From contig NDFF03000005.1 in assembly GCA_002150815.3 (NCBI GenBank), positions 1 through 64,000 of the forward strand: a stretch of 64,000 nt of DNA, read 5' to 3'. Below, piece by piece: positions 43,362 to 58,306 of this stretch; positions within the stretch are counted from its first letter, which is position 1; each line of letters begins with the position of its first letter. This stretch comes from Grammothele lineata. Taxonomy: Eukaryota > Basidiomycota > Agaricomycetes > Polyporales > Polyporaceae. Below the pieces are notes generated by a model. The model saw nothing but the letters and a program-made list of their open reading frames with translations, made no database searches and was not told where the DNA came from. The translations under genes were made by a program, and so were the position numbers.

Positions 43362-45097
43362 ATGTCTCTAACAACGATGTCTGTCCAGGCGACTGCCGAA
43401 TATTGGTACGCCACACTCCCCTCATATACCAAGGATTCTGATCAAATCGTCCACGTAGGACCTCCTCTGTCCGATTTAACAATTGCTGGGCACTCGCTGG
43501 GTTCAGTATGTGTCGTATTGTCCCGCCAGTCCACCAATGTAATCATGTCATGCGCAGCGATCCTATTCTACGACTATCTGTTGACCTTCCCAACGGAAGT
43601 AGAGCATTTCTGGAAGTCAGGCCCTAGATTCTCTCCCGTGTCAGTCCTGTTCGTCGTGATCAGGTATTATGGCGTCCTCGGCAGCATTCCAATGATTTGG
43701 GAATATCTTGGCGAGGTTCCGGAACGGGTGAGTGAACTCCAGTGTCAATGCTTCGCGCTTGATTGACTTTGGGTCTAGAGGTGCGAGATTCCCCCTATTC
43801 AGCTCATCATCTCAAGATGATCAGCTACTAACAGTTGTCGACAACTGCAAACCTACCACCAATCATTCGCCATATCAATACAAGCCATTGTAGCGAGTAT
43901 GTAGGGCTAACACTCGCCGCCGCCCGTACTCAATTTGTCACAGTAATGCTCCTCATCAGAACATACGCCGTGTATGACCGCAGCAAGCGGATCCTCGCAT
44001 TGCTACTCATCACGCATATTGGAGGAGGCGTTGCATGCTTCGTAAAGCCCCTATCGGCTTTAACGAATGGCGCACTGACTGTACTGTCAGATCTCCATCA
44101 TCACCACTAAAAGCCCAGTGGAGGAGCAAACTGTAATTGTCTTGCCATTCAGGGTTGATGGCTGCGACCTTTCTCTATCCTCAAACCAGTGAGTACACTG
44201 CATCGCCATCTGGTCGACATTCTCACTACGGGTTTACATCAACCACGCTCTTACTATAAGAGCACTACGTAGGTGCATACTGATATAAATCCAGGCATTG
44301 TTTAACCATCATCCGTTGAACTCTCAGACCTTGTGTTAGCTTGGACAGCCATGCTGTGGTTCGACACCACAATTTTTACGCTGACATTAGTGAAAGCGCT
44401 GCGGATGCGTCGTCATTTTCCGGGTGGTTTGCTGGAGGTGGTTTTCCGAGATGGTGAGCGAGCGCGAATGCCACGTCACATTGCGCTTCTCGCTGATGAA
44501 TTTACCCGTATCCGTAGGTACCTTGTACTTCGCGTTAGTCCACCCTTTTGGATGATCTCTTCAAGTGTGCTGACGCAATCTCAAGTATCATGCTAGTGTC
44601 AAACGTGTCGAATATCATTACATTTGTGGTAAATGCTTGGGACCCATTCTTATGAAGTGAGCTGACAGAAGTGTAGATAACGCCTGTACGTGTATTCTAG
44701 ACAGCGGCATCCGAGTGATAAGCTGAAATCCCTCGAAAGGCCGGCTCGCCCCTCATGGGATTAGAGACAACGCTCACAAACGTGTAGGTTCTGTGCCTGC
44801 GCTGATGAACTACTTTAGCTCTGATAGCTTTGATACAGATTCTCGATCTCGCTCACTTCGCGCCTCATTCTCAATCTTCGCGACCCGAAACTCCGGCGAC
44901 CGCGGCGTCTTGGCGAGACTGCACCCCCCACAGACTTCGTCTCCACCATAGCTCCGACGTCTTCCATTATGCCCGAATTCCATCATACCCTCACGGCGAT
45001 TGAGTTATCACAGACCACGGCGAGCAGCACAGGTACTGCATGTACACGGTGCCAAGGACACGAGGGGATTGGATCTTCCGTTTTTCCACCCGTCTGA
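43362..45097 (+). CDS. DUF6533-type multi-pass membrane protein, array copy 1
   Basis: First of five tandem paralogues of unknown function. Fourteen exons sum to exactly 1026 nt, 341 residues. The DUF6533 signature is ILFYDYLLTFPTEVEHFW followed by SVLFVVIRYYGVLGSIPMI. About six to seven membrane segments follow, including IMLLIRTYAVYDRSKRILAL and AMLWFDTTIFTLTLV. The C-terminus after SRLILNLRDPKLRRPRR is a hydrophilic, probably cytosolic tail. Frame requires a 2-nt exon at 43779-43780 (introns 43728-43778 and 43781-43834). Other very small exons are 8 nt (44261-44268), 16 nt (44518-44533) and 9 nt (44677-44685). All junctions are GT..AG. The gene appears intact. Confidence 0.85.
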
Positions 45098-46436
45098 AGC
45101 TTTTTGTGGTGAATGTCTCGGTCACCAGAACAACCTGAAAGTTGGTGCCTTTAATAGTCATATCGTCTTGTCAGAGTCACACTCCGTATACATCTAGGTA
45201 TGTGCCTCCCTCTCACCGTCTTTCCCGCTTGTTCACTGTTCTTTGTGTAGCAACTGTATAATGCCATTTTTTGAGGCTAGACATACTCTTGATTGTTTCA
45301 TTCCTTTGGACAGAACATGCTTGCGTACAACGACTGTCTTCTTGAGTCTCAGTCTAGTTGTACACTGGCGATTGCTGATTAACCGTAGGTCGGGCAGGGA
45401 TTGTCGTTACGTCGAAGGTCTGAGTCATGGGCGTTTGCTCTCCCACGCGGACAACTAATCTCGACACCGTGCATCGATTCCCTCAAATCATATTCGAGCT
45501 TAGCCCTCAGCCACTCACAGAGCTGCTATAGATTTCCCTATGTCGCGCGATTTGTATGAGAACTCAGGATCGCAGCGCACGGACAATGTTTCAAGCCAGC
45601 CAATATGTCCACATTAGTACTTGGAAGAAGCTCTTCGAGAGGTGCTGTGCCATTAGCTTTGTTCCGCCGAGCTTCGTGTTCTGTCAGGTACGTGTGGGAG
45701 CCCATTCATTGACGATACCGCGAGCTCAACGTTTCTCCCACCATTGACAGGGGGCACCGGTTCTCGACCTTTCAACAAGCGATTGATCCCGAATTGGCTA
45801 CGTCTTTGACAGGGATTGACAGATCTGCCCGACAAGGATTCCATCGCTGTCCACCCTCCGCTATCTTGCACATGTAGTGTAGCTATAGTACGTTCTTTTG
45901 TGACTCTTTCGTGTGAAAGAGTCATAATTATGCAGGCGGGTGCACATTCGTTCTTCATATCGAGCCTACTAATTCGCACGGCAGGATTTGGTGACTGTAG
46001 GGGGCCTTGCCTCTTGTAGGTTGTCGCGGTGGGCATCTGTGGCTGTATAGGCTGTCCACGTTATGCGTGCCGGTAAGATTGGAGAAATCTCATGAGGTTC
46101 AATACGCATGGTGAAGTACGCCGTGTGCTCTTGGTTCACCGTGCTAACAGGCGCCCCGTTGACTGTGCTGTCACAGTCTACGAAAGAAGCAGCTGTCAAC
46201 TTATGTGATCGACGCGTCGGCGCGGCCTGGTGACCCCGCCGACAACCCGCTGTCTCGCAACGGGTGCTTTCGGTGCCGCCACACGCGTTGGAGTGTATAC
46301 TTCACCAGAATAATGGACACCCTTATCACTATGCGACGTCGTGCGCAGTTTCCCACTATCCCTTGTTAAGTCATATACGTGGCATCCACCGAGGAGGTCT
46401 TGTCCTTTCCTCCCCCAACCCTCCTGTCAAGTCAAG
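45098..46436. other. Spacer between array copies 1 and 2
   Basis: About 1.3 kb with only short overlapping open frames. It should contain the 3' UTR of copy 1 and the promoter of copy 2. No relic of a further copy was seen. Confidence 0.4.
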
Positions 46437-48125
46437 ATGTCCACGGTGACAGAGGTAGTGGAGGCATCAGCTGAATATTGGTTAGTCCCATTGCCTTAGT
46501 GTGTCCCCTTTCGCTTACGATCGTACTTACCCGAGAAGGAGTTCATCTGTTCGGTTCAACAACTCCTGGGTCGTTGCCGCTCTAAGTACGTGCACAACAC
46601 TGCCGAGTTCCATGTTATCTGGGACTTAATCCGATCTCCTGATCCGCAGCGATCCTCTATTACGACTACGCGTTAACTGTGATCACCGAGATAGAACATT
46701 TCTGGAGGACTGCCAACGTTTCTTTGGTCTCAATTCTGTTTGTTCTGAATCGTTACTATGGCCTCATTGGGACACTTCCCCTTATTTTCGAGTATCTGGT
46801 TAACATTTCTGAACATGTGAGCGACTCGACCTATTCTCTTGTTAGCTATCACATTGATGGTGTTTTCTAGCGGTATTACGTCCGCATGGCGTTCTGTGCA
46901 GTACGTGCTTACACTTCTTGTAGTTGCCGTCAACTACAAACGTACCACGAAGGTTTCGCAATATCAATATCGGCAATTGTAGCAAGTATGTCTCGTCCAC
47001 CCTCCGTGCCTTTGTTTTCTGATCATTATCAGTTTTGCTTCTCGTCCGGACGTATGCGCTCTATGATCGTAGTAGGCGTGTCTTATGTTTGATGCTGGGC
47101 ACACACATTGGCGGGGCTGTTGTCTGCGCGGTAAGTCTGGTGCTTTAATTGTGGGAATGTACGACTTCTGACGGTCGCCCCAGATAGCCGTATTCACCAC
47201 AAAGAGCCCCATAGAAACTGTGACACCCTTACCATTCCGGCATAGAGGTTGCGACTTGTCTCTGACGAATAATCAGTGAGTGCAATGGTGAGAGAGGTAC
47301 AGTCAACTGAGCTTACTTTCCCTGCAGAGGAATACGTCAGTCATGACTTGTTCGAGATTCTGGTATCAGAGACGAGGCTTACGATTTTGCAGACCTCGCT
47401 TTGAGCTGGGCCGCCATGTTGTGGTTCGACACTACAATATTTGCCTTGACTCTATTCAAAGCTTTCCAGATGCGCAGACGATTCCCCGGTGGTTTACTCG
47501 AAGTAATATTCCGGGACGGTGAGCGTCTGACATGTCACTGAAATGTTGAGTTCGCTCATAGGGTCCGCATCATAGGCGCTGTCTATTATGCGTGAGTACT
47601 CCTTCTGGGTTGTTAGATGATGTTCTAACGTTCGCTTCAGCATCATGGTTGCATCCAACGCAGCCAATATCAGCACGTTCTTGGTCTGTTATTCCGTCTA
47701 TCGTGTACCGGCACTAGCTGACCTTCATTTGCATCGCTTAGATTACTCGCGTATGTATTAAGGATACGCCTTGCGCTAACCTCTGCTCATAGCGAAACTC
47801 ACAGTCTGGCTCGCCTCTCAAAGGGTTGGACACCACCCTCGCGAACGTGTAAGTTGTAGGTTTCAATGCACCGTGTGCAGCCCCTAACGCTGCTATCAGG
47901 CTAGCCACGTCGTTAACCTCCCGCCTCATCCTCAATCTGCGTGACCCCAAGCTGAGGAGGCCCAGACAACTCGGAGGACCGAACTGCGCGCCCGAGGCTG
48001 CGTCCACCACCGGCGCGCCAACAACTTCGGAGACGGTGGCTTTCTACGCCACTCTGACGCAGATTGAATTGGGAGAAAGCACTGCGAGGACAACCGAAGA
48101 TCAAGTGGTAGGGGTCGGATTCTGA
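46437..48125 (+). CDS. DUF6533-type multi-pass membrane protein, array copy 2
   Basis: Closest in sequence to copy 1. The N-terminus MSTVTEVVEASAEYW splices to SSSVRFNNSWVVAAL, then TILYYDYALTVITEIEHFW and SILFVLNRYYGLIGTLPLIF. The 2-nt exon CG is at 46871-46872, with introns 46817-46870 and 46873-46923. It supplies an Arg between NISEH and CRQLQTYHEGF. Further tiny exons: 8 nt at 47328-47335, 16 nt at 47576-47591, 9 nt at 47742-47750. Later membrane segments include LLLVRTYALYDRSRRVL and AMLWFDTTIFALTLF. The C-terminal tail begins LILNLRDPKLRRPRQ and ends VVGVGF. All exons stay open. Confidence 0.83.
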
Positions 48126-49561
48126 GATACGTAGGTTCGAGTGTCGCGATTCGCGGATCGGGTTTAAGTATGCCTTTGAGGTTAGGCTGCCGTACTAGGA
48201 AAATCATCATAGGATACGTAAAAAACCATCGACGTGCCACACACCGCCGGAGACTTGGAAGCGCTCTACATAACAGTGTAGCTAAGAAAATAGGGAAGAC
48301 AGCGGCTGCATGTAGTGGGCGTCATGAACACGTCTGTTCTCGAGAACGATACGTCTGGAGCCGGCGGATCTTAGGGGAAGAAGTGAATCGATATAAGGAC
48401 AATCGGAGTTCCAAATCTATTGCATCTCCGAAGCCCGTCCGATCTCAGGTTTCAGCCCAGCTTTCTGAACGATATCAGCCCTTTCAATTCGTTCAACTTT
48501 ACCTGCATCGAGGCCCCGATTCCCAGGTATGCAGGACCAGGCCCGTTCTTCATCGCGCCATGAACGGCCGACTGTTCTTCCCCGCCAGAATCCAGTCCAC
48601 CGCAGCATGATCTGCCCGCAGGAATTTGCTCCAGAATCAGTATCGGACAGTCTTCTTGGATGGCCCTTGGCGGGCTCTGTCAGCGACTTCATCTTCTCAA
48701 GCAACTTGAAGAAGACTTGATGTTGTACAAAGGGTAGACAGGTCAGTGGTTCGTTACCTTGGATAATAGCCACAAGTTGTGCGGCGGCGTGCAACCGCAG
48801 TCTCGCCCGCAGTCGTCACATTACAGTCACCGTCCGTGGACAGCGGACGGATGGAAATGCGGCCCATGAAGATCACAGTGAAAGGGGACGGGACCAGTGC
48901 CATTGTACCCGCTCCAGGGACCGCGGCTCCTTTTTGTGGAAGCGCACGTCCGAGCTCTCATACAGCCTCGCATCCTAGCCCCGCGTGGTGAGCGAGGAAA
49001 GCTTAGTGTTGGCCAGGCGGGTGGGTGGAAGAGCTTTCGGTCGCCACGGAGGACATCCGGTGGCGGGGACAGCTCCCATGTTTCATCGTGCTGCTCAACC
49101 TTGGTTGAACATGACTTAGGGCTCGGTCGCGGCTTGCGATATTTCGGGATGTGAGAGCGCAAGAGGACCGCCATTGACCGATGTGCCTCGCCAAGTCGGG
49201 CCCGAGGATGTGGCTGTCTCCTTGAATGGCGAGCCGCACTCGCCGTTATTCGCGTCCGTCGGGGGCTGGGCTCGGCGTCCGCGCTCCCGGGCCCGCACCG
49301 AGCGCCCGCACGCCACGCAACGTATTGCGTGTGCAGCCGTGGCCGAGCGGACTCAACGAGGCGGTTGGGCGGAGAGAAGATCCACTCTACCCTTGCAAGC
49401 CATCTCTTCGCTGTCAACCGCCATGCACCCGTGCCCGGGCCACGAGAAGCCATCTCCGCCGCGGTCTGATATACCTTCGGTCTGCATCCTCTGTGGATCC
49501 CTCCTGACAGTTCTTCTCCCCCACTCCAGCCGCGCACCGCTCTGGCGCAGAGGCCCCCGCC
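48126..49561. other. Spacer between array copies 2 and 3
   Basis: About 1.4 kb. A 249-codon minus-strand open frame (48827-49576) lacks an ATG at its start and shows no domain, and it overlaps the start of copy 3, so I do not call it. A tRNA-like string near 49333 was also rejected. Confidence 0.4.
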
Positions 49562-51290
49562 ATGGATGCCCTCCAAACCACTGCAGAGTCTTTGTGCGTT
49601 GTCTCCTGCCCAAATGTTCTACGAAATTCACCAGTTTCCAGTGTCTCCGCCGTACGCGTAGACACATCTCTCACGCTCGCTGCATTTTGTGAGACGACGC
49701 CGCTGGTCCTCTTCGCCCTTCGCGACCTGACATTGCACAGCTATCCTCTATTACGACTACTTCCTCACCATAACGTCCGAGATCGAATACTTCTGGAGCC
49801 CGCCGTCGCTATCTCCCTCATTCGTGCTGTATGTCATCAGCCGCTACTTCGGACTGCTCGGCCCCATCCCAGTATTCTTCGAGTATTTCGGCGTATTTCC
49901 TGAACAAGTGAGTCTGTCCACACTCGACTCTTACGATTGCCCTACTGATGTCGCTGGTTGATAGCGGTTAGTATGCTATTTCTCATCACCGTCGTAGACG
50001 TGTGCGTCCCTGTTTGCAGGTGTCGGCAACTGCAACTATATCATCAGATTTACGCGATCGTGAGCCAAGCGGTAGTCGCAGGTGATTGTCGAGTGAACGG
50101 CACCTATCCATCCTCACTCATAGAAGTCCGGGATCAGTGCTACTGATCCTCCGAACATACGCCTTGTACAATTGCAACAAACGCGTTTTAGCCCTGCTTA
50201 TTGGGATGCATCTTGGCGGCGGTATACAGTGTCTTGTCAGTTGTCTTCATTGCACTGCAATTGCACCGCCATCTGCGTCCGAGCATTCGCTGACAGTTCT
50301 TTGGATAGACCGCTGTTCTCACCAGCAACAGCCCGTTGACAACGGACACCCCACTGGAATTCCAATTCACCGGATGTAATCTTTCCCTAACCAAGGACCA
50401 GTACGTATATCAACCTTTGGTCTCGTCGCCCATTGCTGCACAGCGGGTTACTGAGGGGCATGCTTGGAACGCTCTAAAGGGGCATTCGTGAGTTGTTCCT
50501 TCTCGTCTATAAACGGGCTAAAATGACACGCCATAGATCTAGCACTCGCATGGAGCGCCATGTTATGGTTCGACACAACGATTTTCGGTCTCACATTTGT
50601 CAAAGCCATTCAAATAAGGAATGAGATATCTGGAGGGCTGCTTGAAACCATGTTCCGAGACGGTTAGTACCTCATGCAAAAGTACGCGTGGTAGACTGAG
50701 GTTCACCTGATCTTTCCCTAGGAACTGTTTATTACGCGTGAGCAACTCCGTGAAGTGCACGTGGTTTATCGACGTTGATGAGCGCCGTACAGTATTTTGG
50801 TCGTCGTAAACGTGGTTAACATCATCACCTTCCTTGTGCGTATATCTTTAATCCTTGTCTGAGCACGGAATAACTGTGTATCCTATAGGTTACGGGCGTG
50901 AGTATCTCCTGGAGATCGAAGTTATCATTAGATCAAAGCTTGACGAGGCAATACAGTCCGATACGCCTATGAAAGGGATGGCCACCACCCTGACCAACGT
51001 GTAAGTCAGCAATGTCGCATACATAGCTCCTGGTTGGCTGATAAACCCTCCTAAGCCTCTCGGTCACGCTCACATCACGACTGATGCTCAACCTGCGAGA
51101 TCCACAGATACAGTTCAGACGGCGCATGGACAGGACGAGTCGATACGAGGGCTGGTCTACGGGGCAGTTCAGCAGCAGGATGATGTCTTTCAGACATCCA
51201 ACATTGGCTAACGACACTATCACCATGGATGACATGAGCGGTTCCGACCTGTCTGCGCCGACTGAGTCTATCATCACCTCAAAAGTATGA
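49562..51290 (+). CDS. DUF6533-type multi-pass membrane protein, array copy 3
   Basis: The start MDALQTTAESF splices to a diverged second exon (SSVSAVRVDTSLTLAAF), then SILYYDYFLTITSEIEYFW and RYFGLLGPIPVFFEYF. The 2-nt exon CG is at 49965-49966, with introns 49908-49964 and 49967-50019. It supplies an Arg before CRQLQLYHQIYAIV. Other tiny exons: 8 nt at 50480-50487, 16 nt at 50722-50737, 9 nt at 50889-50897. Membrane segments include LLILRTYALYNCNKRVLALL and AMLWFDTTIFGLTFV. The tail after SRLMLNLRDPQ is charged and Ser/Met-rich, ending ESIITSKV. The N-terminal segment differs more from copies 1 and 2 than the core does. Confidence 0.83.
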
Positions 51291-52231
51291 CGTCTTCCCC
51301 AAGGAAGCAGTGTACCGTATCTATGGGTGAGTTGCCGGTTCCTGGGAGGCATGGAGTTGCTAATGGTCACCATGATCCAGTGTAATATAGGACGCGAAGT
51401 ATAGCTAGAATAGATGGCGGCGCAGCAGTAGGCTGCGCTTTGGCGACAATAACTCGCGCAAGCTTCTCGTTCGGATACCCGGGGGCTTCAAGCTCTGGTG
51501 CTAACGCTGATGGCAATAATTGTGTTTGGCCGCCATCTGTGCGTTGAGTACCAGTAGACACGAATGATGCGCTGATGGCTACGCACTTCCAAGTCTATCC
51601 TTGGGTGAGCCGGTTGCTGATGTCTTGGTTGAAAGCCGGAAGGTCGCGATTTTATTAGGAGATAATTCTGCGCCGGTGCGTCACGTCATGTCTGATCGCT
51701 TGCATCAGAAGTTCGGAAGCCCTCTTGGATGTGCCGACTGCGGCCGAATATTGGCGAACGTTTACGGACCTGAGGAGGACTTCGTCGGGTGAGTCCCTTC
51801 GCTCAGCTCCGACTACATAGGCAGAAGGATAGCGAATGAACAGGTCGTGTTCTCCAGGAAGGTGCTTGAGGTGCATAGTGAATATCCGATGATGTCGGTG
51901 GAGGACACAAGGCGCATCAAGAGGAGATCGATCTGACGAGATGTTTGTAAAACCAAATTTCCGCGTCGGGCCGCGGATATGAGTCGCGTGGGCAAGCACC
52001 GGAGACCGGTCCTAGAAGTTCTGACTGTCCCACGCCGAGGGTTGATGCAGATGTGTGTCGTCTCCAGGTCAGAGACTGAGCTTGCGCACTTCTTGAGCCT
52101 CTGTTCCGGGCTGCGGTGACGGTCAACGTTCAGGCAACGTTTATGCAGGGAATACTTTAAGACTCCTGGGTGGGTCCTGTGGTCCGCGCTCTCTCGGTGA
52201 ACCGCTGCCTCCCTCCTAACCCGAGGACGCC
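51291..52231. other. Spacer between array copies 3 and 4
   Basis: About 940 bp, without a recognisable gene. It should contain the promoter of copy 4. Confidence 0.4.
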
Positions 52232-54497
52232 ATGGACTTGCACAAACCGTCCGCGGCGGAAGTGGTCGGACTGTGCGTATGTTTCGCTTTTGGAAGCATC
52301 GGATACTTTCGCTGACAGGCTCCCAGAGCTGAGTCGATGCGTTTGAACGATAACTTGGCGTCCGCCGCTTTTGGTGTGTCATCTTTACTGTGGTCCCTTG
52401 CAAGGGGTCTTTGGCTTATGGGCTCATGTACCAGCGTTTCTCTATTTCGATTACGTCCTCACCTTCGACAGGGAGGTCGAGCACTTCTGGAAGTCCGCGA
52501 GGTTCAACCTGGTGTCGTCTCTCTTCGTTATAAATCGTTACCTCGGACTGCTGGGACCCATACCGGTCATTTTCGAATATTTTGTTCTTCTTGAGCCTCA
52601 GGTGAGTGCTCTGTATCTGTTTCGGTCCACGATCCGACTTATGCGTATGCAGACGTACGTAGTACACTGCACTATCATTTCATCCCGGACCTTAACCCGC
52701 TGCTCCAGTTGTCGGGATATGCAACGATATCATCAATTCTACGCCCTAATCAGTCAGATGGTGGTCGCTCGTGAGTACGAATCGTCTCTGCTATAGTTCA
52801 ATTCTTCATGCGACACTAGTGCTCCTAATTTTGCGAACACTTGCACTCTACCCTCGCAACAGAAAGGTGCTCACAGGCCTTGTAATCGAGTCGGCTATTT
52901 TAATAACCGTGAGTAACACCGTACTTGCGCGCACACGTCAAAGCACCGACTCTCAGCTCTTTAGGTGACGCTTGTCGCCAATTTCAGTATGAAGAATGCC
53001 TCCTTGGCCCCAACTGCGTCTCCGAAAGGGCTCAAGATTGGCTGTATTCTTACTTTGACGGCTGCCGAGTAAGTCCTTCAACTGCCTCGATGCCTTCGTC
53101 CTGTTTCTCAGCCGCCTATTGCAGGGGTTTTCGTGAGTTCTTTCCCTATCAGTCATCATGCAAGTCTCGCTGAGTCGGTTATCATGCCTCAAAGGTGGTG
53201 CGGTTGGATGGATAGCAATGTTCATCTTGGACACTACTCTGTTTTTCTTGACGGTTGTCAGAACTGTCCAGATGAGAAGGCATATGCACTCTCAGGCTTT
53301 ATTGGTTATTCTCTTTCGTGACGGTGAGTAAGGTCACGTCCGTATCCCTAGATGGGACTCCCTCTAACTTGTGCACACAGGGGCTTTATATTACCTGTGA
53401 GCAGTTCTTCCGCTCCGCTCGTTCCATGAGCTGAACACAATCGCAGCGTTCTCGTCGCAGCACTTCTTGTGAATATTATGACCTTTATTGTGAGTCTCTG
53501 ATCAGCCCGTGAGAGTTTCAAATGCCAACGACCTGACGGGCCTACAGGCACCCGAAGTAAGACTTATCCAACGAGACCCGCCGGTAACGTATGCTCATCG
53601 ACTATACAGACAACAGGTGCCAAAAGAGGACTCGCGACTACCTTGGTGAACGCGTAAGTCGTCTTAGCAGCGTTAGCGTTTCATGCTCGTTACTTATTAT
53701 CGCGCTTCAGCCTGTCAACTACGCTCGCTTCGCGTATTGTCCTCAACCTACGCGATCCTCATCTCCAGTCCGGTTCGCGTGGGCGGATTACGGGCACGTC
53801 GCATTCTGAATCCGTGTCCGTCGGAGATCGGATCAAGATAGTATCGATTTGCATGTCTCCTACGGGACACACCGTGGACTTAGAGAGCATTCCTATGGCT
53901 GCTATGCGCCCTCAGTCGGACGGAAAGTCGCAGCGGCCGTGGACGCAGACCGCACCTCAGCACGGCTCCATACAAACTACACCTCAAATCGGGCTATCAT
54001 CACAAGAGCTTCGACTAGTGCCACAACCGACCGTACACCATGCGTCGCAGCATCAAGCACGGCCGTCGGCTTTACACCACCACTCGTCGTTACCCTCTCT
54101 ACATCATACGAATTCGTCACCGTCAGGCCTCCGTCATCAAGGCTCCCAACCCTCCCTACATCATGTTCATTCTCGACCGTCGCTACACCATGATCATGGA
54201 TCTCGGCCGTCTCTGCATCATTCTAGTTCTCGACCGTCGCTGCACCATCACGCTTCGGTCCCGTCTTGGCAGGGGTCCTCTGTGGAGGTATCGGGTGTAC
54301 CGCACTTGCCCTCACATCCGCGGCCTCAGCATGCGCATTCGCCCTCCTACTCGTCACGTTCTTCTCAGCACCGAGAACAGCCGCACAAACCTCATGCATT
54401 TTGTGTGAACCCAGACCACGCCCACTCTAGATGGCAACTGGTCGAGATGGAGAAGTCGGAAGCTCCCCGCCATTCGGTACGTGGCACCTACCCCTGA
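52232..54497 (+). CDS. DUF6533-type multi-pass membrane protein, array copy 4, with His-rich tail
   Basis: The start MDLHKPSAAEVVGL splices to AESMRLNDNLASAAF, then AFLYFDYVLTFDREVEHFW and NLVSSLFVINRYLGLLGPI. The 2-nt exon AC is at 52653-52654 (introns 52602-52652 and 52655-52708), giving a Thr before CRDMQRYHQFYALI. Other tiny exons: 8 nt at 53125-53132, 16 nt at 53381-53396, 9 nt at 53548-53556. Core membrane segments match the paralogues (LLILRTLALYPRNRKVL, WIAMFILDTTLFFLTVV). Unlike them, the tail after SRIVLNLRDPHLQ runs about 240 further residues. It is rich in His, Ser, Pro and Gln, with repeated PSLHH units at about 54060-54270, and ends HSVRGTYP. Confidence 0.83.
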
Positions 54498-56568
54498 TGA
54501 GGGGATGAATCTGATTACCATACCGATTATTCGACTACTCGAATCCAGTGATCCACACACATACACACACACCGCCTGACAAGCGCCGGTCGTATCCCTG
54601 TCGCAAGGCACTTAGCGTACACTCGGACTCGCCTCGGACGATACAATATCTGTATTTTTAAGTCCTTTGGGCCCACATTTCTCGCGGTTGAACCATGTAT
54701 TACTACCTAGCCCACAACATGGCTTGATGCTCGCGCAGCTCGGGCGGCCCTAAGACACTCTTTCAAAGATACCCATATAGAAATGCAGTCGCGCTTTGAG
54801 ACATATAGTGATTTGTAGTGTCGCCATTCTTCCCAGTCGGCGCCTCATCGCCGGCCCGAGTGAGGGTTCACATTTTTGCTTTCCTTGTGCGGGAGCGTCA
54901 TACAAATCTTGCGTGATTTGCGGAAATTTACTTTTTCGCCTGGCCTGTACAAATGTCGCACGTCTACATACGTGATTTTGCGGGAGCTTACGGGCGGTTG
55001 CTTGAATACACGGGACAGAGAAATATTGAGAGGAAAACGGGTGCACTGGTCTCCATACCTGATCTGTGACCATCTAGGACTCTGGTGTCCCCGACGTGAG
55101 CGTTGGATACGGAGCTTTGCCAGCGGGGCGGGTGCAGCAGCGAAGTGTGTGGCGGTGCATGCCGCGCTTGCAGCGATGGCCATTGGCACCTAATTGTAGT
55201 TCCGCTCGAAAACCCGTCATAGAGTGCCTGGGGAAGATTACTAAGGAAAGCGAAGATATGAAGCATGTCGCACTGATGTCTGTGTGCTTGTATACAGGTT
55301 TTTGTGTAACTCCACTGGGATTTGGGCCTCCCGCAGAACATTCTATTGGGTTGAAGGCATGAAGCTTGACGTCGAGTCTAGCGTGCGCTGGGCGTCTCCA
55401 AAGTTCCATCGTTGAGTGGATGATTCGCTAAGTCTGTGACGTGTACTCCTGCGGTGAGCTATACAAGTGGGTTGTTTGATAACTTACAATACGGTTGAAA
55501 TTGGTTTGGAAGGTTGTTGGGGGTCCCTGTTGGGTGTAGAGGCGACGACGGCCGACGGCGACTGTGGTGGGGTGGTGGGGCGGGGAGGTGGCGCCCGCGT
55601 GGGAACAAGTAACCTCACGCGAGTGCATTTGCTTGGCTGGAGCAGCCTGGCAGGCGGCCCGTGAATTCCCGTACCCGTAAAGCGAGTCGACTTGTAGTGG
55701 CGCTCAAGCACTGGACTGACATTGTCATACGCACGCACGAAAGTTCTCGTCCCTACTATTGGTGTGACGCCATCTCTTGGATGTGGGTGGTCCGCAGGAT
55801 CAAGCGGTCGTAATCGCCCCCCTCGTCCTCCTCCATCTCTACCACAATTTACTGACCCGGTGCGTAATGCGTCAGTGGCCGTCGCTGCAATGGTTCGTCT
55901 TGTGGTCCATGGGATCTCCACGCACTCTATACTCATTGTATGTGCCGTGGCATGCGCACCCCTTGCGGCCAGCGCCCTCGCTAGAAGCACTTTTAGGCTC
56001 GAAGGTCTCATCCTGCCCGGTCACTTCTACAGCCCCGTCCTCGAATCTCCCCGATCAGAAGCAAGACAAGAATGCGTCTTGGGAGGCTGCGAAGCGGGCC
56101 CGAGGCGGGTCGTGTCCATGTGAATTGCTTCCAGCCCATTCTCTGTGGAGGGCTATAACAAGTTATACTTATCTGCTGCTGTGCGAGCACATTGTCGCTT
56201 GAGAAGATGGAGCGAGAAGTTGAAGATAACGTCACACTTCCGCGGATTTGCGCCTCTCCAGCCCACGGCTCCTCCCCGCCAGCCGTACCCGATTTGACGA
56301 CGGTCCCGCGGGGGACGCATACGTGCTCGACCGTGGAAAGCCGTCTCACGGCGCATGTGCGGGTTGCCTGGGAGTACGCCGCGCTCCTTGTTCGCCGACG
56401 AACGTTGCCCCATGTAAGCGGCGCTTCTCGCTTTTCCGGACGGAGATTACGAGCTGCGCAGGCCGGCTTGCTCGAGGTCTGTACTTAAGTCTCAGGGGGC
56501 TTGGCGAAAACGGGGATCTTCATGCCATCACTGACCTGCCACCACGACCGCTCGCTCCAAGAGCCGCT
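54498..56568. other. Spacer between array copies 4 and 5
   Basis: About 2.1 kb, the longest spacer in the array. Open frames on both strands near 55484-56123 overlap each other and show no domain. No relic of a sixth copy was found by looking for the YYDY and LNRY signatures. Confidence 0.4.
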
Positions 56569-58306
56569 ATGTACATCGATGATCTCTCACCGACGATCAC
56601 TTTGTGAGTACCCTCTGATCTGCCCCTGGCACCGCGCGTGGAGAATCCCAGGCTGATCAACAATTTCCTCTCGTGATAGAGCTTTATCAACACGTTTGAA
56701 CAATACTCTGGCCATCGTGGCCTTCGGTATGGGTGGCTTGCTTTCTCTTCTTCGGGGTGTACTTATGTGACGTCCTCCAGCTATGCTATATTACGACTAT
56801 ACCCTCACACTCACTAGAGAAATAGAACACTTCTGGAGAGGAGCTCGACTGTCCCTTGCTTCGACTCTGTTTGTGCTTAACCGCTATCTCGGGCTTTTGG
56901 GTCCCATCCCGGTCTTCTTCGAGTACTTTGTGTATCTCCCTCAATCCGTGAGTCTCCGCATCTTCGGTACCACTCGTTATTTTTAACTTCTCTGTCGTCG
57001 CAGAGGTATGAGGCTCACTAGGCCTGCTCTAATTTACACACGGCTGACTACCTAGGACAAGATGTCGGAAATTGCAAAGGTATCATCAGTATTATGCTGT
57101 CGCAAGTCAAATCGTCGTCGGAGGTGAGCCCACTCGTTGGCATGGCTGCTACTGTGAGTTTAAATCCGCCTAGTTTTACTCGTGGTGCGCACATATGCGT
57201 TGTATAACCGAAACAAACGAGTTCTTGTTGGGCTTGTGGTTTGGTCATTCACACTGGTCATCGTGAGTGTCCTAGTGTAGAGTGCAGATGCGCTCATACG
57301 AATGCAGAGCATCATGGAGGTGACGCTAATCGCCGGAAACTTGCAAATATCGGATGCGATTCCTTCCATGACTGCTGACCTGGCAGCGATATCTTCTTGC
57401 GACCTCGCTTCAACATCAGATGTGTGAGTGTCGGCATCGTCGCGATCAAGTAACACTCAGTTTACTCAAATTGTTGCACACAGTGGCTTACGTGGGTGCT
57501 CCTCCCTTCATGACAACGAAGCAACAGCCCATGTAGTCACATACAGGGAGTGCGATCGGCTGGCTCGCGATGCTCTGCCTGGACACGTCGGTTTTTGTGC
57601 TTACTTTAGTCCGCACGATCCAAATGAGGCACAACATGTATCAGCCGAGTCTGCTCATGATATTGTTTCGTGATGGTGAGTATGTAGCAATCTTTCTACT
57701 GCACACAACTCATGATCTGACTACAGGTGCTGTATATTACGCGTAAGTGATTGCCGTCGTCCAACGATTGGTCGGCTGAATAACATTCTTGAATGTTAGC
57801 ATCCTTGCTGCAGCGAATGGCGCGAATATATTGACATTCGTGTACCCAAGCGTACGTCTTCTTTTGGTGCTCGTTGGATTCGGTAGTAATTCTCGTCAAA
57901 TAATCTCAGGGGGGTTACTGGAAGAGAGGAATTCTAACCACGCTGGCAAACGCGTGAGTATCTTCCAAGTATCCGCTGTACAGTCGATTACTCATGCATA
58001 TCTGGTAGACTCTCTACGACGTTACTATCGCGCATTTACCTCAACCTTCGCGACCCCAGCTTACATGGCGGGGCACGAAGAGTGGGAAGAATGACGCTAA
58101 CAGTTTTATCGGAGGTGGAAACTGCCAACACGCACCTGTCTTTCGGCCAACCTACGGACACACGCCGACTGACATACGAGCCTCGGCGTTTGAGAGTAGA
58201 GCAACCACACATGCTCACGGACGTCTCATATCCTGACGGCGTCAATGAGGCGGGAGATATACGGGAGGAGCCCAGGACCGGCTCTCGACGTCCGCAGGGT
58301 GTCTGA
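56569..58306 (+). CDS. DUF6533-type multi-pass membrane protein, array copy 5
   Basis: The start MYIDDLSPTITL splices to ALSTRLNNTLAIVAF, then AMLYYDYTLTLTREIEHFW and STLFVLNRYLGLLGPIPVFF. The 2-nt exon AG is at 57004-57005 (introns 56948-57003 and 57006-57061), giving an Arg before CRKLQRYHQYYAVA. The 8-nt exon is at 57484-57491 and the 16-nt exon at 57727-57742. The nine bases that form a separate exon in copies 1-4 are here joined directly to the exon before them (57800-57851), so this copy has one intron fewer. Membrane segments include LLVVRTYALYNRNKRVLV and WLAMLCLDTSVFVLTLV. The tail after SRIYLNLRDPS is charged and ends SRRPQGV. It is closest to copy 4 in its core. Confidence 0.83.

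Follow-up and report, generated by a model that had tools for sequence, protein, structure and literature searches.

A probable two-nucleotide coding exon in about a hundred DUF6533 genes of Grammothele lineata

Genes of the DUF6533 family (PF20151), which encode receptor-like membrane proteins, carry in the basidiomycete Grammothele lineata what is probably a coding exon of just two nucleotides (nt). The element was noticed in five tandem copies on the plus strand of the window, that is, the 64,000-nt stretch analyzed here, which is taken from contig C5 (NDFF03000005.1) of the 252-contig, 41.8-megabase (Mb) genome. A phase-0 and a phase-2 intron would together split one codon, leaving its first two bases (NN) alone between an AG and a GT, while the third base would start the next exon. 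From the genomic sequence, we put the probability that these two bases form a constitutive 2-nt coding exon, joined by stepwise, intron-defined splicing, at about 0.93. The comparison covers the DNA of this one genome and all 150 scored copies of the family, five of which lie in the window.

The first-pass annotation had proposed a genuine 2-nt exon in these five genes. This reading is supported by five complete open reading frames (ORFs), by 102 of 150 paralogues that are built alike, by 24 of 150 copies that have one intron and continue NN in frame into a neighboring exon, and by a branch-like site ahead of NN. The feature is present in all five tandem copies as claimed, but the claim was too narrow, since the feature is family-wide (102/150).

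Two probable coding bases in five tandem genes

The five gene models were put together by hand and then verified by script. In each of them, the DUF6533 exon (exon 3) ends in phase 0 and the next recognizable exon opens one base before a Cys codon, with AG-NN-GT in between, exactly where the earlier annotation had located it. In copy 1 (coding span 43362-45097, 14 exons), exon 3 (43558-43727) is followed by AG at 43779-43780 (TAG|AG|GTGCGA), flanked by introns of 51 and 54 nt, and exon 5 (43835-43896) contributes the T that completes a Ser codon ahead of CRQLQ. The exon chain adds up exactly to the 342 codons counted before, although this figure includes the stop and the protein has 341 amino acids (aa). 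Copy 2 (46437-48125; 14 exons, 327 aa, 328 codons with stop) has exon 3 at 46650-46816 and CG, encoding Arg, at 46871-46872 (TAG|CG|GTATTA) between introns of 54 and 51 nt. Likewise, copy 3 (49562-51290; 14 exons, 326 aa, 327 codons with stop) places CG (Arg) at 49965-49966 (TAG|CG|GTTAGT), with exon 3 at 49741-49907 and introns of 57 and 53 nt. Copy 4 (52232-54497; 14 exons, 515 aa) combines exon 3 at 52435-52601 with AC (Thr) at 52653-52654 (CAG|AC|GTACGT; introns of 51 and 54 nt), and copy 5 (56569-58306; 13 exons, 350 aa, 351 codons with stop) combines exon 3 at 56781-56947 with AG (Arg) at 57004-57005 (CAG|AG|GTATGA). Its first intron measures 56 nt and its second 56 nt as well, or 50 nt with an upstream acceptor. 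The residues Ser, Arg, Arg, Thr, and Arg are those predicted, and the ten flanking introns fall within the proposed 51-57 nt apart from this shorter option in copy 5. There, two acceptors (CTAG and CAAG) lie 6 nt apart at 57056-57062 in front of the exon that follows the 2-nt exon; either keeps the frame, which may make two residues optional.

With the two bases included, all five window genes are complete ORFs free of internal stops, and the introns of all models are GT-AG throughout and 47-79 nt long. Skipping the two bases leads to a premature stop in every model (at codons 119, 118, 159, 215, and 115 for copies 1-5). All five places exceed the curated PF20151 cut-off of 24.1 bits, copies 1 and 4 with 50.3 and 50.2 bits.

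Family-wide conservation and single-intron relatives

DUF6533 genes occupy at least 150 scored places in the genome, often in clusters; the PF20151 search returned 195 candidates, and all 150 scored ones lie above the cut-off. Our own scoring rules, together with hand curation of unclear copies, assigned both introns to 102 copies, intron 1 only to 15, and intron 2 only to nine, and left 24 unclassified, among which ten have a phase-0 donor and YAG-NN-GT (Y, pyrimidine) at the right spacing. The two-intron copies, 73 of them anchored on the Cys codon and 29 on the profile frame, share the order intron (phase 0)-AG|NN|GT-intron (phase 2), with flanking introns of 55.5 and 58.5 nt in the median (ranges 43-81 and 48-89). 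Architecture, frame, conservation across the family, and the fused single-intron states are directly visible in the DNA.

NN itself varies: it reads AG in 46 of the 102 two-intron copies and something else in 56 (GG 22, AC 12, GC 6, AT 5, others 11), which yields Ser in 42, Gly in 22, Thr in 12, Ala in 6, Arg in 6, and other residues in 14. Many copies on contigs C29, C49, C129, and C179 have GG at this position and no Cys after it (often Ala-Leu instead), so the Cys is not universal even where the 2-nt exon appears to be kept. Two further copies deviate around NN. At C28:199627-199746, a copy among the 24 unclassified ones, AG-AG is followed by GCTCGT where GT is expected, and the second intron next to the 2-nt exon may be of the GC-AG type. 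At C2:105708-105827, AG-AG-GT is followed by sequence with a GGATCGAACCC-like string, a possible insertion; we take this string to resemble a transfer RNA T-arm on the other strand.

The single-intron relatives fill the same codon without interruption. Where only intron 1 is present (15 copies), the downstream exon begins with a whole codon right before the Cys (ACN in 9/15), and the residue is Thr, Ser, or Ala in 13/15. In the nine intron-2-only copies, which are confined to contigs C76, C103, and C81, the DUF6533 exon extends by two more bases, ends in phase 2, and is closed by NN; Gly, Thr, or Ala occupies the codon in 4 of the 7 that were scored for it. The closest pair in unlike states consists of C69:4775, which has one intron and the codon ACC, and C50:157217, which has both introns and AC + T; AC is common to the two, and exon 1 is identical at 35 of 54 aligned positions. 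Judged by their sequence, copies with NN fused in frame at the same codon are a natural control comparable to complementary DNA (cDNA). A search for copies without either intron, which covered the 150 copies (in the first frame, with the 15 best listed) and used a single 62-aa query from copy 4 as well, came up empty.

Two tests addressed how far AG-NN-GT exceeds chance. In the first, the frame of the next exon was set by a peptide profile (at least 5 bits) independently of splicing, which was usable in 87 of 150 copies. Of these 87, 67 allow two introns to be placed in frame around a 2-nt exon, compared with 2-13 for each other exon length from 0 to 14 nt. In the second test, a phase-0 donor, chosen blind to downstream sequence, could be placed in 129 of 150 copies. 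In 104 of the 129, an AG-N2-GT follows whose AG ends 45-70 nt further on, against a mean of 11.5 and a maximum of 20 in 200 runs of a Markov null. Other spacings (k) between AG and GT are seen in 5-26 of the 129, except for k = 0 (49/129) and k = 6 (53/129). Among the 102 two-intron copies, however, 43 of 50 and 43 of 53 such instances, respectively, would vanish without the AG or GT bordering NN, and the two peaks are thus mainly echoes of k = 2. When donor and acceptor are fixed, 93 of the 102 copies offer exactly one AG-NN-GT that leaves both introns at least 42 nt long.

On a tree of 124 copies and 80 columns, which is poorly resolved (67 of 121 inner branches open), the three intron states require 9 changes versus 21.3 in shuffles; intron-1-only accounts for 7 changes and intron-2-only for 2. 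Given how widely the two-intron state is spread, it is probably old within the family, with several losses of single introns, although gains may also have occurred. Many paralogues would have inherited the two-intron state, and some branches carry only one of the two introns. If the 2-nt exon is ancestral, the repeated single-intron branches would form an evolutionary series for a codon split by two introns.

Proposed splicing order and alternative explanations

From this architecture, we infer splicing in vivo, sequential removal, and the order of the introns. Exon definition could hardly recognize a 2-nt exon, and each flanking intron would instead be recognized on its own. As the acceptor and the donor lie only 2 nt apart, the upstream acceptor and the downstream donor would not be bound simultaneously, and the introns would leave in succession. 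Intron 1 would be excised first, joining NN to the DUF6533 exon, whereupon the NN|GT donor would be used from the newly made junction. Such a removal would be akin to recursive splicing, except that two bases stay behind. The proposed order follows from a stronger branch-site signal in intron 1 and from YAG in 102/102 copies before NN versus 87/102 at the second acceptor; both are weak signals, and they tentatively favor intron 1 as the first to leave. A branch-like CTNAY is located 8-40 nt ahead of the AG that adjoins NN in 77 of 102 copies (null mean 29, maximum 44), mostly at 12-19 nt; its count for the second intron is 53 of 102 (null mean 31, maximum 46). Where the AG-NN-GT candidate is unique (93 copies), the counts are 69 for intron 1 and 49 for intron 2, and in the 29 copies scored without a branch-site term 20/29 and 10/29. 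As for the codon itself, pyrimidines occupy its third position, on the far side of intron 2, in 42 of 46 copies with AG as NN versus 22 of 47 with a four-fold degenerate NN (naive Fisher p 3.8e-6; Cys copies only, 39/43 versus 13/25, p 7e-4), and a pyrimidine after AG is what translation of a Ser codon predicts.

A number of points weigh against a 2-nt exon, against the proposed order, or against the figures cited for them. Branch-site terms were part of the score for the 73 Cys-anchored copies, and the count of Y before AG was helped by scoring that rewarded Y. In single-intron copies, CTNAY is found in merely 7 of 15 (intron 1 only) and 5 of 7 (intron 2 only). The Fisher tests treat related copies as independent, and a tree-based test of the third-base coupling, which had 4 usable pairs and no power, saw no effect. 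The class counts were reached after removal of six weak single-intron calls and after two intron-2-only copies of the C76 cluster had been placed by eye; the stop filter was waived for four copies and, in one classification step, was not used upstream. For the order of removal, the APC11 paper discussed below cites a 9-nt exon of potato invertase at which the second intron leaves first, the opposite of what we propose (PMC4674806). A single in-frame intron of at least 42 nt, of any length, can be drawn at scattered places in 54 of the 87 profile-framed copies. Restricted to 42-90 nt, a single in-frame GT-AG intron is possible, again at scattered places, in 55 of the 102 two-intron copies, including window copies 2, 3, and 4. 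In copy 5, longer single in-frame introns of 124-139 nt exist. Finally, copy 4 remains open with intron 1, intron 2, or both kept, as does copy 2 with intron 2 kept.

These last observations would fit a frame that is restored by one longer intron with another donor or acceptor, or by an intron that is retained, with AG-NN-GT as a coincidence. We regard this as very improbable. In 47 of the 102 copies, no single-intron solution exists at 42-90 nt, and the solutions found elsewhere differ in place from gene to gene; the excess over the Markov null speaks against coincidence, and in the single-intron paralogues NN is coding at exactly the same codon. Even less credit is due to the idea that the whole region of ~110 nt is one nested intron, either a stwintron or a zero-nt recursive splice site, removed in two steps with no exonic base left. 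Two successive excisions are expected under this model and under a 2-nt exon alike, and where NN is AG (46/102) the resulting AG|GT string would suit a zero-nt site. The other 56 copies do not have this string, and the two bases are required for the frame, so the element does not qualify as a zero-nt recursive site. Nor does it qualify as a stwintron: if the whole region is removed, the frame is lost and translation of all five window models ends at a premature stop, and single-intron relatives encode one residue at the codon. Least probable of all, to a degree that we would put close to nil, is that the genes are decaying or that ribosomal frameshifting mends the frame and makes a 2-nt exon unnecessary. 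In line with decay, the family has many members and 3 of 150 places contain an in-frame stop within the DUF6533 stretch, but the window copies are otherwise open over 326-515 codons (5/5); the conserved splice signals around NN and its in-frame fusion in 24 single-intron copies argue against both decay and frameshifting.

For the constitutive 2-nt exon, a wider claim can be made with considerably more reserve. We lean slightly toward the view that the exon is ancestral and family-wide in DUF6533 receptor-like genes, has been kept in more than 100 paralogues and probably across mushroom-forming fungi, and forces strict two-step splicing, intron 1 first, at each of them, with the family systematically mis-annotated.

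Known ultra-short exons and further features of the window genes

Ultra-short exons as a kind are already known, with 1-nt examples in plants and, since 2026, in Fusarium. The CYP621A P450 genes of Fusarium contain a 1-nt exon described as the first fungal case, and all but one of the deposited transcripts are wrong at this site (PMC12940212). As in the DUF6533 genes, an ultra-short fungal exon lies within one codon, and both systems are recognizable by intron phases that cannot match, by an AG on one side and a GT on the other, by an apparent intron that is too long, and by a relative with fewer introns at the site (an intronless one in Fusarium). Whereas the Fusarium exon was confirmed by reads (PMC12940212), the exon proposed here is predicted from DNA comparison. 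It also measures 2 nt and recurs in more than 100 paralogues of one genome, while the Fusarium exon measures 1 nt and occurs in single-gene orthologues across species (20 or 24, the paper giving both numbers). Single-intron intermediates are present here, and the passages on CYP621A mention none (PMC12940212).

In plants, APC11 and VPS55 have 1-nt exons that are conserved, essential for the frame, and absent from reference annotation (PMC4674806, PMC8831610), and sequential, intron-defined splicing has been proposed for that of Arabidopsis APC11 (PMC4674806). APC11 copies without the introns exist and are comparable to the single-intron copies here (PMC4674806, PMC8831610). The plant exons differ in measuring 1 nt and in occurring in few gene copies per genome, with VPS55 alternatively spliced in some species. 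Among basidiomycetes, P450 genes of Phanerochaete chrysosporium have microexons, the shortest given as 6 base pairs (bp), and introns of 45-55 bp (PMC1184071), and thus resemble the DUF6533 genes in their very small exons and short introns. A passage on a microexon search in basidiomycete RNA sequencing data is silent on 2-nt exons (PMC4014442).

At the zero-nt recursive sites of Drosophila, an acceptor adjoins a donor and removal is stepwise, as we propose here. These sites lie in long introns and leave no exonic base, whereas the introns in the DUF6533 genes are ~55 nt long and two coding bases remain. Fungal stwintrons likewise involve two consecutive splicing reactions at one place; in a stwintron, a splice element of one intron is split by the other, while here both introns are whole and are separated by two coding bases.

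DUF6533 has been described as basidiomycete-specific, and the Snowball protein SNB1 of Coprinopsis is a DUF6533 integral membrane protein with seven predicted transmembrane helices (PMC10949477); it has the domain in common with the genes described here. A survey of Ganoderma merely names the domain (PMC8955403). Our literature search for a 2-nt exon in fungi or mushrooms, which left most subscription papers outside its reach, found none. As far as the literature searched goes, the scale (about a hundred genes) and the presence of both half-way states in one genome are new. Exons of 1-2 nt have been known from few genes; this genome would add about a hundred divergent cases, all at the same homologous codon. 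Together with the natural variants that lack one or the other intron, the two-intron copies could serve to test how the spliceosome deals with an acceptor that sits two bases from a donor, and which intron it removes first. Moreover, gene models of a large family of mushroom membrane proteins, to which the fruiting-body gene snb1 belongs, may be wrong in any annotation whose gene finder is unable to place an exon of 2 nt.

An Rfam scan of the window gave no match at gathering scores. Pattern searches of viral and prokaryote contigs hit 31 and 165 stretches, respectively; none was confirmed as a relative, as expected for a fungal family.

The five window genes contain further small exons. An 8-nt exon occupies a homologous place in all five, at 44261-44268 (AGCACTAC), 47328-47335 (AGGAATAC), 50480-50487 (GGGCATTC), 53125-53132 (GGGTTTTC), and 57484-57491 (TGGCTTAC), and so does a 16-nt exon at 44518-44533, 47576-47591, 50722-50737, 53381-53396, and 57727-57742. 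Copies 1-4 also have a 9-nt exon (44677-44685, 47742-47750, 50889-50897, and 53548-53556). In copy 5, the matching nine bases are joined to the upstream exon (57800-57851; 52 nt, not 43), which provides a natural control for the 9-nt exon. The last exons of copies 1, 2, 3, and 5 measure 226-298 nt, and in copy 4 a single last exon of 787 nt (53711-54497) encodes a long terminal tail with abundant His, Ser, and Pro.

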